Below are positions 857 through 22,951 of a stretch of DNA of 28,114 nt, one piece after another (position 1 is the first letter of the stretch; each line of letters starts with the position of its first letter). Made by a program: the position numbers and the translations under genes. The notes below the pieces were generated by a model, which saw only the letters and a program-made list of their open reading frames with translations, made no database searches and was not told where the DNA came from. Source of the DNA: a virus; IMG/VR virus record IMGVR_UViG_3300045926_000049, positions 1 to 28,114 of that record. One strand, given 5' to 3'.

Positions 857-1102
857 ATGCGGATCAAAGCTACGAAGCAACCTCCACGCCCGACACGTCC
901 TCACCGGTTGCCGGTCGCCGCGCCCGAGGCGATCGCCGAGTTTCTCAAACGCGAACCCAAACGCCGCGCCGTCCTCATCCGCATTGATACCCGCGTCCTC
1001 GACGCCTTCCGCGCCGAGGCGGATCGCCAAGGGATCGGGTATCAAACCCTGATGCACAACATTCTCACCACGGCGGCGATCACCTTGGGGGGGCAATCGT
1101 GA
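857..1102 (+). CDS. Ribbon-helix-helix (BrnA/CopG-like) DNA-binding protein, 81 aa
   Basis: Residues about 38-75 read VLIRIDTRVLDAFRAEADRQ then GIGYQTLMHNIL. This is the beta-strand, helix, GxGYQT turn, helix layout of BrnA-type antitoxins and related MetJ/Arc repressors. The N-terminal 35 residues are basic and Pro-rich. BrnA normally pairs with a BrnT toxin encoded just upstream, but no BrnT-like ORF is present here, so a transcriptional regulator role, possibly of its own operon with the integrase or as a recombination directionality factor, is more likely than a toxin-antitoxin role. That role is inference. The ATG at 857 is about 13 bases after GGAG, a little long. Its stop overlaps the next start (GTGA). 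Confidence 0.75.
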   Translation: MRIKATKQPPRPTRPHRLPVAAPEAIAEFLKREPKRRAVLIRIDTRVLDAFRAEADRQGIGYQTLMHNILTTAAITLGGQS

Positions 1103-1308
1103 CGCCGCAATTTCGCGAGGCGTTCGAGGCGATGAAAGCGGCGGCGGACGCCCTGATCGTCGTCAATACGCAGATCAAGCGGATGGGCGATGCGATGCTC
1201 GCCGCGAATGACGATCACGAAGATTTGCGGGAGCACGTCGTCCGCCTGGAAGGGATGATCCTGAATTTGACCGCCGAGGTCCGCCAACTCCGCGAGGGGC
1301 GATCCTGA
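1099..1308 (+). CDS. Small coiled-coil protein, 69 aa
   Basis: The GTG at 1099 overlaps the RHH stop (GTGA), and the TGA at 1306-1308 overlaps the integrase ATG by one base, so this gene sits in a tightly coupled three-gene operon. The whole protein is heptad-like; the C-terminal half, HVVRLEGMILNLTAEVRQLRE, has leucine/valine at a/d positions typical of a dimeric coiled coil. There is no recognisable domain. It might be an accessory factor for the regulator or the integrase, but that rests only on position. Confidence 0.6.
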   Translation: MTPQFREAFEAMKAAADALIVVNTQIKRMGDAMLAANDDHEDLREHVVRLEGMILNLTAEVRQLREGRS

Positions 1309-2720
1309 TGCCGACCATCGACACGAACATCGTCCAAGAGGACGACGGATCGTTCCGCGTGTACGTGCGCGACACGGATCCGATCACCGGCAAATCGAAG
1401 AAGGTCCCGCGGCGATTCCCCATCGGCACCACACTCGCCGCCCTCCAGGCGTACCGCGACACGCGGCGGGCGGTCGCGTTGGCGCCGGAGCCCGAGGCGG
1501 CGGCGGCGACCGGGTTCACCGCCGACGCGCGCCGGTACCTCAAATTGGAGGACGTGAAGGCGATGCCCGCGATCAAATCGCGGACGCGCGAGATCGAGAA
1601 GTGGATCGGGATCTTCGGCGACATGCCGCGCGAGGCGATCGACAAAAACATGATCAACGACGCCTTGTATCGGTTGAAGAAATCCGGCTATGCGGCGGCG
1701 TCGTGCAACCTGTTCCGGACCGCGTTGATGTCGTTGTGGACGACGCTCGACGGGCGGAGCGGCGCCAATCCCGTACGCGATGCCGTCGTGTTCGAGGAAG
1801 CGCCGTTGATGCCGCGCGGCCACTCCTACGATCTCCTGACGCGGATCCTCGACGCGATCCCCGACGAGCGGGGCATCGCGATCGACCGATCGACGCTCTA
1901 TCGCGAACTCTGGAACGAACCCGCCACGACGGTTGCGAGACAGTACGGCGTGTCGTCGCGCTACCTCGGGATGATCTGTACGCGATTGAGTATTCCGCGC
2001 CCGCCGCGCGGGTACTGGACGATGCCCCCGTACGCGCGCGGACCGCGCCCGCCGTTGCACCGTGGCGTCAACGGACGGGCGCCGGAGCTTCTGAAATCGC
2101 GCGCCCGCCTGGAGGTCCTCGCATGGACCGGGATGGATCCCGGCCAATTGGCACGGATGGAACCCGAGCGGGATTTCTCGTTCGCGGGCGGCGGATGGTA
2201 CTCGCCGCCGTTCCGCCGCAAGGGACGGCGCGTCACCCGAGCGCCCCGCCTCCCGGTACGCTTGCCGATGACGCCGGAGGCGCGGGAGGCCTTCCAACGC
2301 CTCCTCGCCGTGGGCGCCGTGGGCGCGTTCAGTGGCGCGTCGTTGCTGCACACGTGGATCCGCGCGCAACGGCGCGTCGAGCGGGCGATCCGCGAGGAGA
2401 GCGGCGACCCGACGTTCGTCCTCCCGCATATCCGGTTGAAGGACGTCCGGCATTCGTTCGGGACCAAGCTCTACGAGGACACGGGCGGCGACGAAAACAA
2501 GGTTGGGCAGATGTTGGGCCACGCGCCCGGTTCCCCGATGACGCGCCGCTATGCCCTCGGCGCGGTCCCCGATGTGCTCCGGCAAGCGATGGCGAAATGG
2601 ACGCCCACGCCGAGGCGAAAGGTTTTTGGCGCGCGACGTCCCGGCGAGGGTCGAGGGGCGGGGGGTACCGCCTCCCCGTCAAAAGGGGCCAAAGTGGTAC
2701 CCCTTACGCGAAATTCCTAG
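1308..2720 (+). CDS. int: Tyrosine-family site-specific integrase with an inserted HTH domain, 470 aa
   Basis: It recombines attP with the bacterial attB, here inferred to be tRNA-Arg(CCU). The C-terminal catalytic half shows KDVRHSFGTKLY (box II Arg 381, then His 382), QMLGHAPGSPMTRRY (His 405, nucleophile Tyr 415) and a basic RRKGRR hairpin (about 303-308, catalytic Lys). At box I the usual TG-R-xxE arginine is replaced: WTGMDPGQL has Asp at 277; some integrases of this type also lack Arg there, as far as I recall. Residues about 75-165 are the SAM-like core-binding domain. Residues about 191-238 hold an extra helix-turn-helix (LYRELWNEPATTVARQYGVS, then PRPPRGYW) splitting the catalytic domain before box I. 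The tail from 435 is Gly/Arg-rich and overlaps the att arm repeats. Start: ATG with GAGGGG upstream and a TGATG overlap. Confidence 0.93.
   Translation: MPTIDTNIVQEDDGSFRVYVRDTDPITGKSKKVPRRFPIGTTLAALQAYRDTRRAVALAPEPEAAAATGFTADARRYLKLEDVKAMPAIKSRTREIEKWIGIFGDMPREAIDKNMINDALYRLKKSGYAAASCNLFRTALMSLWTTLDGRSGANPVRDAVVFEEAPLMPRGHSYDLLTRILDAIPDERGIAIDRSTLYRELWNEPATTVARQYGVSSRYLGMICTRLSIPRPPRGYWTMPPYARGPRPPLHRGVNGRAPELLKSRARLEVLAWTGMDPGQLARMEPERDFSFAGGGWYSPPFRRKGRRVTRAPRLPVRLPMTPEAREAFQRLLAVGAVGAFSGASLLHTWIRAQRRVERAIREESGDPTFVLPHIRLKDVRHSFGTKLYEDTGGDENKVGQMLGHAPGSPMTRRYALGAVPDVLRQAMAKWTPTPRRKVFGARRPGEGRGAGGTASPSKGAKVVPLTRNS
1878..2021 (+). other. Inserted HTH domain within the integrase
   Basis: This segment encodes integrase residues 191-238. 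It matches the layout of a short HTH module seen in stand-alone bacterial proteins: an aromatic/Leu-rich helix (STLYRELW), an xPxTxxARxYGVS helix-turn, a second helix ending in LSIPRPP, and the invariant-looking RGYW end. The flanking residues (ILDAIPDERG before, KSRARLEVLAWTG after) would be contiguous in a standard integrase. The family match is from memory and should be checked with a profile search. Confidence 0.6.
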
Positions 2721-2734
2721 CAATTTTCCAAATT

Positions 2735-2786
2735 GTGGCGCCTCCTAAGCGCTAGGCCGTGCGTTCAATTCGCACCGGGGACACCA
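2735..2786 (+). other. attP core: 3' half of a tRNA-Arg(CCU) gene
   Basis: The segment folds as the 3' half of a tRNA. Anticodon stem: 2737-2741 pairs with 2749-2753. Loop: CTCCTAA at 2742-2748 with anticodon CCT. Variable loop: AGGCC. T-arm: GTGCG/CGCAC around TTCAATT (2759-2775). Then CGGGGAC as the 3' acceptor strand (2776-2782), discriminator A and an encoded CCA ending at 2786. The matching 5' acceptor strand (GTCCCCG) and D-arm are absent upstream, where the integrase ends instead, so this is not a functional tRNA. Phages that integrate in tRNA genes carry exactly this kind of 3' copy so the gene is restored after recombination. It lies 15 bases after the int stop codon. Confidence 0.85.
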
Positions 2787-2817: not shown

Positions 2818-3128
2818 GTTGTACGGCGTCCGCGCCGATCGCCGGACCGGGGGAGGGGGGTACCGCGGGGGGTACCGCCCGATACAGCCGGATACAGCCG
2901 GGTACAGGGACCCGGTACCGGGCGAAGGTCCTCCCGGCGAGTGGACGCGAGATGCGAGGGGTTCGGCGATCTAGTCCGGCGTTCAACGGATGGGTCGTTT
3001 CACGTGAAGCGACTCGACCATGCCCGCGCCCCTCCAGGCGTCGAGGGCGCCGGACGATCGGAGGTTCGGAGGCACCGGAGATCGCGTTCCGGCGAGGCGC
3101 CGGGACGGGCGGGGGCGGCGCCGGGCGT
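2818..3128. other. Non-coding attP-proximal region
   Basis: About 310 bases without a credible gene. Short frames exist on both strands but none has a ribosome binding site or protein-like composition. The left third holds the GGTACC/GATACA boxes (to 2922). The middle holds a parS-like palindrome at 2994-3013. The right third (3050-3128) is very GC-rich, with GGCGCCG-type runs leading into the end of the hub gene. Nothing else is recognised. Confidence 0.7.
2994..3013. promoter_or_regulatory. parS-like palindrome (ParB-binding-site resemblance)
   Basis: A 20-base inverted repeat, with a single mismatched pair, is centred on CACGTG at 3001-3006. Its inner 16 bases (2996-3011), CGTTTCACGTGAAGCG, match the conserved chromosomal parS consensus TGTTTCACGTGAAACA at 13 of 16 positions. 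The inner 14 bases (2997-3010) match GTTTCACGTGAAAC at 13 of 14. It lies in non-coding DNA about 210 bases from the attP core. Host ParB binding is inferred from the motif. No ParB with a parS-binding HTH is visible in this window. Confidence 0.5.
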
Positions 3129-15547: not shown

Positions 15548-17449
15548 CTACGGCGCGGGCGCGTAATTCGCCCCGCTGACGTACTTCACGGCTTCATCCC
15601 GTCCCCGCTTCCAATTGATAAACCGTTCCGCCCGCAAGCCTACGAGGTTGTTCTGCCAGAGCGACACGAGGACCGTGGTCGCGTCCGGCGGCGCCGCGGG
15701 CGCGGAGTCCATTTGGACGGACGCTTCGCGCGACACGTCGATCGCCACGCCGCCATCGTCCGCGAAGAGGACCGTCGACGGTTGCAACGCGATCACGTTG
15801 AGGGCGGCGGCGTTGCTCGTGACGACGGAGATCCCCTCGATCGATCCGCCCGTGACGCCGACGTTCGGGAACACCTTGTTCCCCAACGCATCGCGCGCGA
15901 ATCCACACGCGAGGGCGTTCACTTCCGACATGATGATCACGGCGCCGCCGAGGGGGATATTCGCCGCGGCGAGGGCGCCGAGAAGCAATTGAATATCCTT
16001 CAGCGGATCCGCCGTCGACGTGATCGCCGTGGTGCCATTGGTGATCGACGCCGGGTTGACGTTGGCGACCGCCGCGACCGCCGGATCAATGAACTGCGCG
16101 TCGAGGAACGCGGCGATCCCCGCGATCATGTCGGCGCGACACACCGCCTCGGCGGAGGGGTTCGAGGTCCGGACCAGTTCCTCGGTGAGGACGATGATCC
16201 CGGACGCCTTCGACATATCTAGCTTGGCGAGTCCGAACCCGAGTTTGGTCACCGGTTTCGGTTTCGCTTGACCTACCCATCCGTACGACCCGCCCGCGGT
16301 TTGCACGGGTACCGAGGTATTGAACGGGACGCGTCGGAGGTTCGGGATCTTGCCAAGGATCGTGGCGGGGCGGAGCAACTCGAGGAACTCATTCGCGATG
16401 TTTTGCACCGCGGGCACGAGGTTCCCCGCCCACGCGGGATCGGTTGTCGTGCCCGGCGCAACCGCCGCCTTGAGATACAACCCGACTTCGGGTGTCGAGT
16501 CTTCCCATTGCTTGGCGTACTCGATCGCCTCGAATCGGTTCCCGCGGGACGCGAGGATCGCCATCGCCACACGCGTGAACGCGGTGCCCGGCGCCAAATT
16601 CGATCGCACCTGGATCACCGGGTTCGCGGATTTCACCGCAAGGGCGGTGCCCCCGTGCGGACGCGCGGCGACCGCGGACGCCGCGGCGACGTTGGCGGAC
16701 TCCAACGCGCGGAGGCGCGTCAGGTGCGCGTCGATCGATTTGAGTTCGAGTTCGAGCGTGTCGTATTCCTCGGTTTGCGCCTCGTCGAGGGTGACGCCCG
16801 CATCGGCGGCGGTTTGCATCAACTCCGCCATCCGCGCCGCCTTCGTGGCGCGCGTGGCATCGAACGCGGTGATCTGTTCCTGGATGGTTTGTTTCATGGC
16901 GGGCGCGACTTTCACGCGCACAACGGGGAGCGTGTCCGCAACGCCGGACGAGGTGATGCCTGACGCGGCAAGGTGTGGGGCGTCGAGCGATTTGATCGTC
17001 AGGATCGAGGCGTCGACGTTCGCCGGGATCGTCACGAGGGAGAGTTCCACGACTTCCGTTTTCAGGAAATGAATCCCGCCCTCTTTCAGGAACTTCATCC
17101 CGTCGTGCAAGGGACGGAACCCGATCGACACGCCCCGCATCAACCCGGCGACAAGGGAGGTCCACGCCTCGTCGATGCGGTCCTTCACGGCGCCGGGAGT
17201 CGCGATCGTCGCGAGGGACGCGGTAAAGGTGATCGCCTCGGCGGTGGCACTCAACGTCGCCGATCCGACCGGACGTTCGCGATCGTGGTGCAACAACAAC
17301 GGCAGGGGATTCTGGAACGTCGCCCCGAGGGGTTCGAGGATGTCGCCGCGGCGATCGGGGGCGGGCGTCGAGGCGATCCCGGTGATCGTGCGTTTGGCGG
17401 CGTCGATCGCCTTGACGTGAAGGACCGCGTACGCGCGGTGAAGATCCAT
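15548..17449 (-). CDS. Head maturation protease - major capsid protein fusion, 633 aa
   Basis: One polypeptide appears to hold three parts. Residues 1-160 are an HK97 gp4-like serine protease: GIASTPAPDRRGDILEP, PLLLHHDRERPVG (His 54/55), LMRGVSIGFRPL (Ser 108) and TEVVELSLVTIPANVDAS (Glu 135); the triad is assigned by analogy. Residues about 185-270 are a helical coiled-coil scaffold (delta) segment. Residues about 275-633 are the HK97-fold capsid subunit: AIEYAKQWEDSTPEVGLYLK; LVPAVQNIANEFLELLRPAT; the FGLAKLDMSKASGIIVLTEEL block; and FADDGGVAIDVSREASVQMD. The protein must self-cleave to release the capsid subunit. Such fusions are known in some phages. The ATG at 17449 follows a hairpin and lacks a clear Shine-Dalgarno. 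Confidence 0.92.
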   Translation of the reverse strand: MDLHRAYAVLHVKAIDAAKRTITGIASTPAPDRRGDILEPLGATFQNPLPLLLHHDRERPVGSATLSATAEAITFTASLATIATPGAVKDRIDEAWTSLVAGLMRGVSIGFRPLHDGMKFLKEGGIHFLKTEVVELSLVTIPANVDASILTIKSLDAPHLAASGITSSGVADTLPVVRVKVAPAMKQTIQEQITAFDATRATKAARMAELMQTAADAGVTLDEAQTEEYDTLELELKSIDAHLTRLRALESANVAAASAVAARPHGGTALAVKSANPVIQVRSNLAPGTAFTRVAMAILASRGNRFEAIEYAKQWEDSTPEVGLYLKAAVAPGTTTDPAWAGNLVPAVQNIANEFLELLRPATILGKIPNLRRVPFNTSVPVQTAGGSYGWVGQAKPKPVTKLGFGLAKLDMSKASGIIVLTEELVRTSNPSAEAVCRADMIAGIAAFLDAQFIDPAVAAVANVNPASITNGTTAITSTADPLKDIQLLLGALAAANIPLGGAVIIMSEVNALACGFARDALGNKVFPNVGVTGGSIEGISVVTSNAAALNVIALQPSTVLFADDGGVAIDVSREASVQMDSAPAAPPDATTVLVSLWQNNLVGLRAERFINWKRGRDEAVKYVSGANYAPAP

Positions 17450-20658: not shown

Positions 20659-20894
20659 TACAACCACCCCCGGATCGTGACCTCGGTCACGGCGATCGCG
20701 ATCGCGTGATCGAAGTCCTTCGCCGCGTAGGGTCGCGCGAACTCCCGCCCGTCCCGCGACAACACTTGCACGGTCCAACGGAACGCGTGCGCGCCGGACG
20801 GTCCGCAACACACGGAGATCGTGAGCCCCGCGCGCCCGATCGCCTCCATCGTCTCGATCGACGTCGCATCAACGGGAAGAGAAGGATGTGTCAT
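20658..20894 (-). CDS. Small hypothetical protein, 78 aa
   Basis: The start is set at the ATG at 20894, which overlaps the methyltransferase stop (ATGA); the longer frame overlaps that gene in antiphase. The text ISVCCGPSGAHAFRWTVQVL then FDHAIAIAVTEVTIRGWL suggests a compact beta-beta-alpha fold. Similar small proteins ending in a WTV...A-AI-EA---GW pattern occur in phages, but none has a known function. Confidence 0.65.
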   Translation of the reverse strand: MTHPSLPVDATSIETMEAIGRAGLTISVCCGPSGAHAFRWTVQVLSRDGREFARPYAAKDFDHAIAIAVTEVTIRGWL

Positions 20895-22114
20895 ACGCTC
20901 GCGACCTTCACCGCGCGCGACCCGGTGAACGCCTCCCATCGATCGATCGTCACCTGGACGAATCGCGGGTCCAACTCGACGCCGCGACACACGCGCCCGA
21001 TCGACTCCGCCACGATCAGCATCGTCCCCGATCCGAGGAACGGATCGACGATGAGTCCGTCCGGCGGTGTGAGTTTCCCGACGACCGGACGCACGACGTC
21101 GACCGGCTTCGGCGACGGATGCCCGCCGCGGTCCTCGCCGGTCACGGTCGACATCTCGATGTGGTCGCGCACGAGTTCCGGTCCGACATAGCGTCCCGGT
21201 CCCGGCTTCCGGAAGATCGCCGCGTGTTCACACGACTTGGCGAGGTACTCGGGAAAACCCGGCGGCGGGTTCGGCTTGACCCACGTGAACAAATTGAGCC
21301 ACACGAGATCACACGCGAGGGCGACCCGCTCGATCGTGCCGATGCCCTGATAGGGTCCCCACGAGGCGAGGTACCCGCCTGGACGCACGACCGCGGCATA
21401 TTCGCCGACCCACACCGCATCGAGGGTTGCATCCCACGGCGCCGTACGTTCGTCGATCGCGGTCCCCCCATAGAACCCCTTGCGCCGATCCGCGGCGTCC
21501 GCGTCGAGGGCGATCCCGTACGGCGGATCGCCCCACACCATCGCCGCCACGTCGCCTCGCATCAACCGGGCGCGGACCTCGGGATCGTGCGCGTTGCCAC
21601 ACGCGACGACGTGACGTCCGCACTCGAACACGTCGCCGGGTTGGATCGACGTGGCTCGAGGATCGGGCACCGCATCGGGATCGGTGCGCCCCTGTCGCGG
21701 GACCACGCCGAACACCGCCGCGAGTTCGCGCGTGTCGAAGAACGGGGCGAGGTCGAGCCCGTTGTCCCGGTCGATCTTCAGTTGCGTGGCGTTCCACTCC
21801 GCCAACTCCGCGGCGCGGTTGTCGTACATGGCGAGGGCGCGTTTCTGTTCGTCCGTGAGTCCCCGTCGACGGACCGCGATCAACTCGTCGCCCGCCGCGT
21901 CGACGATCCGGACCTTGGACAATCCCGCCGCGGTCGCCGCGTCGACGACGCCGTTTCCGGCGAGGACCTCATTCCGTTCGTCGATCACGATCGACCGCGC
22001 CGCGCCGACGCTCCGGAGCGACTCCGCGATCATCGCGCGGTTGCGCGCCGGATGACTCCGCCGGTTCTGCGGATCCGGTGTGAGGTCCGCGATCGTCGCC
22101 GTTGACTCGTCCAT
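20891..22114 (-). CDS. ParB-like N-terminal domain fused to a DNA methyltransferase (N4/N6 type), 407 aa
   Basis: Residues about 1-140 resemble the ParB/sulfiredoxin-like domain found in phage proteins (PDPQNRRSHPARNRAMIAESL, then EVLAGNGVVDAATAAGLSKV). Residues about 155-400 are a class-beta amino-methyltransferase. The catalytic motif is DPPYGI at 196-201. The SAM-binding motif, DPFLGSGT, comes after it at 357-364, and HPSPKPVDV precedes it at 332-340. Such ParB-MTase fusions are common next to terminase genes. It probably methylates phage DNA to resist host restriction or tag packaging DNA; the specificity cannot be read from sequence. A GAGGGGG ribosome binding site precedes the ATG at 22114. 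Confidence 0.93.
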   Translation of the reverse strand: MDESTATIADLTPDPQNRRSHPARNRAMIAESLRSVGAARSIVIDERNEVLAGNGVVDAATAAGLSKVRIVDAAGDELIAVRRRGLTDEQKRALAMYDNRAAELAEWNATQLKIDRDNGLDLAPFFDTRELAAVFGVVPRQGRTDPDAVPDPRATSIQPGDVFECGRHVVACGNAHDPEVRARLMRGDVAAMVWGDPPYGIALDADAADRRKGFYGGTAIDERTAPWDATLDAVWVGEYAAVVRPGGYLASWGPYQGIGTIERVALACDLVWLNLFTWVKPNPPPGFPEYLAKSCEHAAIFRKPGPGRYVGPELVRDHIEMSTVTGEDRGGHPSPKPVDVVRPVVGKLTPPDGLIVDPFLGSGTMLIVAESIGRVCRGVELDPRFVQVTIDRWEAFTGSRAVKVASV

Positions 22115-22135: not shown

Positions 22136-22951
22136 CTAGCGGGTCACGATCCCGGACGCACTCACGGGCGATCCCGTCGCGATCGCCGCCTGGACTGGCG
22201 CCGACGCCCGCGTAACCGGAACCCCAAGGTGCATTAATGACCCGCGCCGCGCGTTGCACACCCGATGGGAGGCGCGCAGATTGGCATCGGTATCCGATCC
22301 CCCGTGTTCGAGCGGCACGACGTGATCGGCGGTCCCCCCGAGGCGGTCATTCGTCGGGATGCGTGGGTCGATCGTGCCGCCACATACCCAACACCGCCAC
22401 TCGTCGCGATCACAGATACGCCGCCAACGACCGACTTCGCGCCGCCCTCCGACCGAGTGCAGTTTCGCGGACCGTAAGACGCTCGACCGCCTCCGCGAGA
22501 CTCGGCGTTGTTCCGTGGGTCCGATCGGGAGGCGGAATTGCCGCCCTCGTGACGCATCAATCCGACGACGCCGCGCCCGTCGCTTGCGGAGCCCATCTTG
22601 GCGGAGACACCATCGGCAAACCCCTCGCGCGTTACGGGTCATCGGGCGGCGACACCGCGCGCACGGTTTGTATCGTCCCGGTTGCCCCTTAATCCGTTGT
22701 GGTTCGCACTCACGACAAGACAGAGGACGACGACCAAAACCGCTATACACGAAGGCCCGGCAACAGAATCGACACGTCGCTTCTCGTTGCGGCGGTCGTC
22801 GCCGGATTGGATTCGGATTCAATATCCGTCGCTCTGCCGCGCGGAGTCGTCGGTTGCGTCGTTTTTCTTCCCGTCGTCGGCATCGCTCAGAGCAATACAC
22901 ACGAGTGAGGCGTCCAGGCATCGGGATCGGCTTGCCGCAACTCAAACACAC
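22136..22951 (-). CDS. Cys-rich zinc-finger HNH endonuclease, 271 aa
   Basis: The GTG at 22951 is well supported by AAGGGAGGG upstream. Three Cys clusters (C2/C5 with C20/C24; C60/C63 with C79/C82; C97/C100 with C112/C115) look like zinc ribbons. A very basic Arg-rich linker follows (about 118-178). The C-terminal HNH domain comes next: CDRDEWRCWVCGG (C187/C190), ADHVVPLEHGGSD (D209, H210) and RASHRVCNARRGS (H229, C232). HNH enzymes next to terminase genes assist cohesive-end cleavage in HK97-type phages; a homing endonuclease is the alternative. The strongly Arg-rich composition differs from most neighbours. Confidence 0.85.
   Translation of the reverse strand: MCLSCGKPIPMPGRLTRVYCSERCRRREEKRRNRRLRAAERRILNPNPIRRRPPQREATCRFCCRAFVYSGFGRRPLSCRECEPQRIKGQPGRYKPCARCRRPMTRNARGVCRWCLRQDGLRKRRARRRRIDASRGRQFRLPIGPTEQRRVSRRRSSVLRSAKLHSVGGRREVGRWRRICDRDEWRCWVCGGTIDPRIPTNDRLGGTADHVVPLEHGGSDTDANLRASHRVCNARRGSLMHLGVPVTRASAPVQAAIATGSPVSASGIVTR

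Follow-up and report, generated by a model that had tools for sequence, protein, structure and literature searches.

A predicted helix-turn-helix module within the catalytic domain of a temperate phage tyrosine integrase

The tyrosine integrase encoded by a tailed-phage contig (IMG/VR record IMGVR_UViG_3300045926_000049, positions 1 to 28,114; the window is this whole stretch of 28,114 nucleotides) contains, inside its catalytic domain, a segment with the motifs and the predicted fold of a helix-turn-helix (HTH) module of other phage and plasmid proteins. This segment is probably an acquired DNA-recognition module, adding putative contacts beside the core sites. The features considered are collected in Table 1.

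Table 1. Position of the integrase, of its insert and catalytic residues, and of the adjacent att region in the window.
Feature	Coordinates	Strand	Basis or remark
Tyrosine recombinase (phage integrase), 470 aa, carries the insert	1308..2720	+	PHROG 1, Pfam, Foldseek
Arm-binding-type N-terminal domain, residues 1-58 (beta strands and helix)	1308..1481	+	AlphaFold secondary structure, PHROG 1 alignment
Core-binding (SAM-like) domain, residues ~68-165	1509..1802	+	Phage_int_SAM_1, model helices
Inserted module, residues ~187-255, between first catalytic helix and box I helix	1866..2072	+	family alignment, module profile
Three predicted HTH helices, residues 194-203, 206-212 and 217-226	1887..1985	+	AlphaFold full-length and insert-alone models
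Box I (WTGMDPGQLARM), Asp277 replaces the usual Arg	2124..2159	+	family alignment
R303-R304-K305: R303 candidate replacement catalytic Arg, K305 beta-hairpin Lys	2214..2222	+	family alignment
Box II, K378-D-V-R381 (canonical HxxR)	2439..2450	+	family alignment
Y415, presumed catalytic tyrosine	2550..2552	+	family alignment
Probable att core: 3' end of a tRNA with T-arm, acceptor strand and CCA	2759..2786	+	the one site of the window that is T-arm-like and has CCA
Tandem repeat of 10 bp in three copies, next to the att core	2878..2907	+	possible binding site of the integrase or an accessory protein

The integrase and its record

The insert lies in a tyrosine integrase of lambda type, in which a catalytic domain follows the arm-binding and core-binding domains. 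The phage is temperate and uncultured, and its record has the genes of a tailed phage: portal, major head protein, large terminase and tape measure. The integrase matches PHROG 1 (E 3e-20) in two stretches spanning the core-binding and catalytic domains. The matches to Pfam are weak, both for Phage_integrase (E 4.8e-4, under the Pfam cut-off) and, in the core-binding domain, for Phage_int_SAM_1 (E 0.18). Sequence searches with the integrase in PDB and in NCBIfam gave no match. The full-length AlphaFold model, built on a four-sequence alignment, has a mean pLDDT of 66 and a pTM of 0.41, i.e., a low inter-domain confidence. Its structural matches in Foldseek comprise lambda Int and Tn1549 Int (E 1e-6 to 3e-4, with 1.2e-6 for lambda Int) and likewise XerH. 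The window integrase has in common with lambda Int and Tn1549/Tn916 Int the domain order, the overall fold, the catalytic Lys/Arg/His/Tyr and the tRNA 3'-end att site (a probable one in the window); it differs from them by the HTH module of ~65 residues within the catalytic domain.

Three other genes of the window, all on the minus strand, must be mentioned: (i) 15548-17449 encodes one chain of 633 aa with matches to a head maturation protease, in its N-terminal part, and to a major head protein (PHROG 617, E 3.7e-134); (ii) 20891-22114 combines a ParB-like N-terminal part and a DNA methyltransferase C-terminal part (PHROG 498, E 1.5e-63); (iii) 22136-22951 encodes an HNH endonuclease adjoining this methyltransferase-like gene.

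The inserted module

In the PHROG 1 alignment, residues 13-159 of the integrase correspond to model positions 121-256 and residues 264-439 to positions 289-455. Since both flanks are matched, ~72 extra residues lie at one point of the integrase. This point has the first catalytic helix (174-182) on its N-terminal side and, on the other, the helix that runs into box I (260-274). Profile searches were also run with the fragments on either side of the insert.

The original prediction had described residues 191-238 as an HTH of an unrelated family. These residues do fall at 1878-2021; the module is longer, however, up to residue ~250, with a proline-rich tail which is also found in stand-alone proteins. 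The relationship itself is borne out by a profile HMM of the LYxxVWxxP...PPxGYW module, to which ten proteins contributed, none of them an integrase: residues 191-249 of the integrase are matched with 67.9 bits (E 2.4e-17 at Z=1e6). As a control, 10,000 shuffled integrases or shuffled inserts gave a top score of 10.1 bits with the same profile, and the insert-free relatives score 0.9 bits at most. Judged by profile and motif, the segment is a member of the PPxGYW HTH module family: all ten positions invariant in the nine-member module alignment are kept, as they are in L010 (8/10 in L019).

Searched alone, the segment is matched in non-integrase plasmid and phage proteins, in agreement with the unrelated family that had been predicted. 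With tblastn, the matches lie in 102 plasmid records, the best at E 6e-10, and in 13 phage records, the best at E 1e-9. Several of the phage matches are annotated as HNH endonucleases; the module is C-terminal in both of those that were translated, and Pfam HNH_3 is found in the module-ending phage endonucleases with E 4e-8 and 2e-8. In the plasmid matches and the other phage matches, the module is usually N-terminal, in proteins of about 375-480 aa. Because it ends phage HNH endonucleases and starts plasmid and phage proteins, the module can be considered as a portable unit. Homology with these proteins (C-terminus of PHROG 15471, and others) extends over the whole module; the difference lies in its place, i.e., terminal in the HNH endonucleases and plasmid proteins and internal to an unrelated enzyme in the window integrase. 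The possibility that the insert is a degraded homing endonuclease is unsupported: the HTH alone is there, with no HNH remnant.

Structure prediction, which had been proposed as a check, gives the HTH helices in the full-length and in the isolated models, with pLDDT of ~75-90. The segment alone is modelled as three helices with a mean pLDDT of 82.5, helix 217-226 being the predicted recognition helix. Foldseek with the insert-alone model returns mostly HTH proteins, none of them significant (best E 1.5); the PDB sequence search with the module gives weak HTH matches only (LrpA, E 0.011), and the NCBIfam search with the module proteins gives sub-threshold matches only. The RWP-RK domain (PF02042) has a weak similarity to the module across the HTH: 7 of the 9 module members are matched at E <1 (best 9.9e-5) and the window segment reaches 14.8 bits, under the gathering cut-off of 29.3. 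RWP-RK differs by its RWPxRK motif, at the place where the window segment has PPRGYW.

Carriers and insert-free relatives

The family alignment contains ten distinct members, window integrase included. Three of them (window, L010 and L019) have the insert at the same point and in frame. In the seven others, among them L002, which is the closest relative (58% identical overall), the two catalytic segments are contiguous. The comparison of close integrases with and without the insert thus upholds the view of an insertion between normally contiguous segments, and the alternative of a standard catalytic-domain element fails, since the segment is missing from seven relatives. The P185-R267 loop has 81 (window), 82 (L019) and 87 (L010) residues in the carriers vs. 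6, 6, 10, 17, 19, 21 and 21 residues in the insert-free relatives; the site is therefore tolerant of length. The module is thus a real but optional add-on among related phages.

The pairwise identity across the three carriers is 41-52% for the insert and 41-60% for the remainder. The insert appears maintained, as it has diverged about as fast as the remaining protein. A tree was calculated on the ten rows, insert columns left out. The presence or absence of the insert takes two changes on the best tree, and forcing the carriers into a single clade is weakly rejected (AU p 0.034). The tree is compatible with two histories, one in which the insert was gained once and lost in L002, and one in which it was gained twice.

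It is unlikely that the module is a neutral passenger, tolerated by the loop and of little functional effect. Such a passenger would fit with the variable length of the loop (6-21 residues), with this patchy presence and with the fact that L002, without the insert, and L019, with it, are equally close to the window integrase; nevertheless, a passenger should decay, whereas the in-frame insert evolves no faster than the rest and its motif residues are kept in three proteins which are only 41-60% identical.

The core-binding motif LDGRSxANPV is the handle by which relatives can be found. The hand-made pattern LDG[RK]..NPV gives 13 viral loci, every one a relative, and none in 84,980 species genomes. 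Automatic-pattern scans (single protein, two-row or three-row alignments) yielded a single relative among the viral contigs; the species genomes yielded none. The gapped pattern from GYW to box I gives 34 loci, with both domains only in L010, already known. The integrase family was not found in the scans of isolate phages, plasmids and species genomes.

As for the literature, inserts have been described for the Tn916/Tn1549, integron and Arch2 groups (PMC8138268, PMC5871717); these are short, either hairpins or stretches, and lie in other parts of the fold. The passages of the tyrosine recombinase survey (PMC8138268) describe short catalytic-domain inserts and extra N-terminal domains, and contain no HTH module within the catalytic domain. 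No description of the present insertion was found in the open-licence papers searched.

Box I and the other catalytic residues

The family alignment confirms that the box I Arg is replaced, as predicted, by Asp277 (WTGMDPGQL). The residue at this position is Asp, Glu, Ala or Pro in 8/10 members and Arg in 2/10. Asp is found in the window integrase and in the insert-free L002, L025 and L027, Glu in L010, Ala in L022 and Pro in L029; Arg is found only in L024 and L021. The box I change is not linked to the insert, given the three insert-free members with Asp. The catalytic Lys, the box II Arg, the His and the Tyr nucleophile are all found in the window integrase (K305, R381, H405 and Y415); K305, R381 and Y415 are invariant in all 10 members, and H405 is also aligned.

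Position 303, i.e., two residues before the beta-hairpin Lys, is Arg in 8/8 members without the box I Arg and Thr in 2/2 members with it. Residues 277 and 303 thus covary in 10/10 members, a covariation that may rest on one event because the Arg-bearing L024 and L021 are sisters. R303 would make up for the Arg missing from box I, with or without the insert. The residues S259, R285 and K287 of IntDOT have the same spacing as the 277/303/305 pattern. PMC8138268 (citing Kim 2010) reports that, in the CTnDOT integrase, the place of the box I Arg is taken by an Arg further downstream, and this enzyme is active despite the displaced Arg. Since this exception is known (PMC8138268), the loss of the box I Arg is no bar to tyrosine recombinase membership. 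The window integrase is comparable to the IntCTnDOT subgroup: the box I Arg is missing and a conserved downstream Arg may substitute. It differs in that the role of R303 is deduced from the alignment, and the likeness is one of residue pattern, not of subgroup placement.

The replacement of the first catalytic Arg by Asp or Glu could also mean that the integrase is catalytically dead, i.e., a DNA-binding protein only, the HTH being part of its new role. This is highly improbable: Lys305, Arg381, His405 and Tyr415 are all there, and R303 could readily stand in for the lost Arg. Relatives in which this Arg is replaced likewise have tRNA-type att fragments near them, and PMC8138268 provides, with the CTnDOT integrase, an active enzyme with a displaced Arg.

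Attachment site and neighbouring genes

ARAGORN finds no whole tRNA within the window. A tRNA 3'-end fragment just past the integrase gene is the usual sign of an attachment core, and the fragment 2759-2786 is the probable att core of the integrase. Sequences read by eye contain tRNA-type fragments directly after the insert-free L022, L025/L026 and L020/L021; on the L002 contig, such a fragment is localized ~3 kb downstream of the integrase. Since insert-free relatives also carry tRNA-type att sites, the insert is not needed for tRNA targeting and the module is dispensable in the integrase family.

The triple tandem repeat of the window has a counterpart in L019 (~408-437), also of 10 bp, with an unlike sequence and the same place beside the att core; each of the two is then followed by CCCGGTACCGGGCGAAGGT. 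In several relatives, GGTACC sites are found repeatedly in the surroundings of the att core. The repeat was considered as the binding site of the insert; this is unsupported, the repeat being missing near the insert-bearing L010.

Arm-binding-only ORFs homologous to the N-terminal domain of the integrase are present in L019 and L002. That of L002 (7769-8080, plus strand) encodes the arm-binding domain without the rest of an integrase; it follows the integrase gene at a distance of ~3 kb and lies within a few hundred bases of the only tRNA 3'-end fragment of the contig. That of L019 (1974-2288, minus strand), directly upstream of the integrase, encodes a small protein whose integrase-type arm-binding domain shares 60% identity with residues 3-53 of the window integrase and whose C-terminus is, by eye, BrnA/CopG-like; this protein may compete for arm sites, as a directionality factor or a regulator. 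In the window, a BrnA/CopG-antitoxin-like small protein is encoded just upstream of the integrase (857-1102, plus strand; Pfam BrnA_antitoxin, E 1.5e-7), and sequences that look similar by eye immediately precede the integrase genes of L019 and L025/L026.

A regulatory module would bind an operator (of its own promoter or of a partner gene) or contact a phage protein, coupling integration to lysogeny control. Many HTH modules are regulators, the integrase directly follows a BrnA/CopG-like gene, and the L019 gene that joins this type to an integrase-type arm-binding domain suggests a local regulatory wiring. However, no operator-like site is tied to the insert, and the 10-bp triple repeat, common to the window and L019, does not extend to L010; the regulatory explanation is rather unlikely.

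Proposed function and significance

The preferred explanation remains that of an added DNA-recognition module. The integrase would have acquired a complete HTH in a length-tolerant loop of its catalytic domain. The module would bind DNA beside the core sites or the arms, in addition to the usual arm and core contacts, and would raise affinity or selectivity, or help the assembly of the synaptic complex. The addition of target selection or regulation to the recombinase, as put forward in the original prediction, is plausible; the module might also bear on the choice among tRNA genes or on directionality. A more tentative proposal is that the module shared with HNH endonucleases might be a third sequence-reading surface, phages changing or sharpening their integration by its gain or loss.

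Tyrosine recombinases are genome tools whose specificity is hard to change. A natural family whose catalytic domain can take up an entire DNA-binding module shows where an insertion is tolerated. With insert-free relatives 58% identical for comparison, one could test directly whether target choice changes when a module is added. Moreover, the box I/R303 pattern makes the idea of a displaced arginine testable outside CTnDOT.
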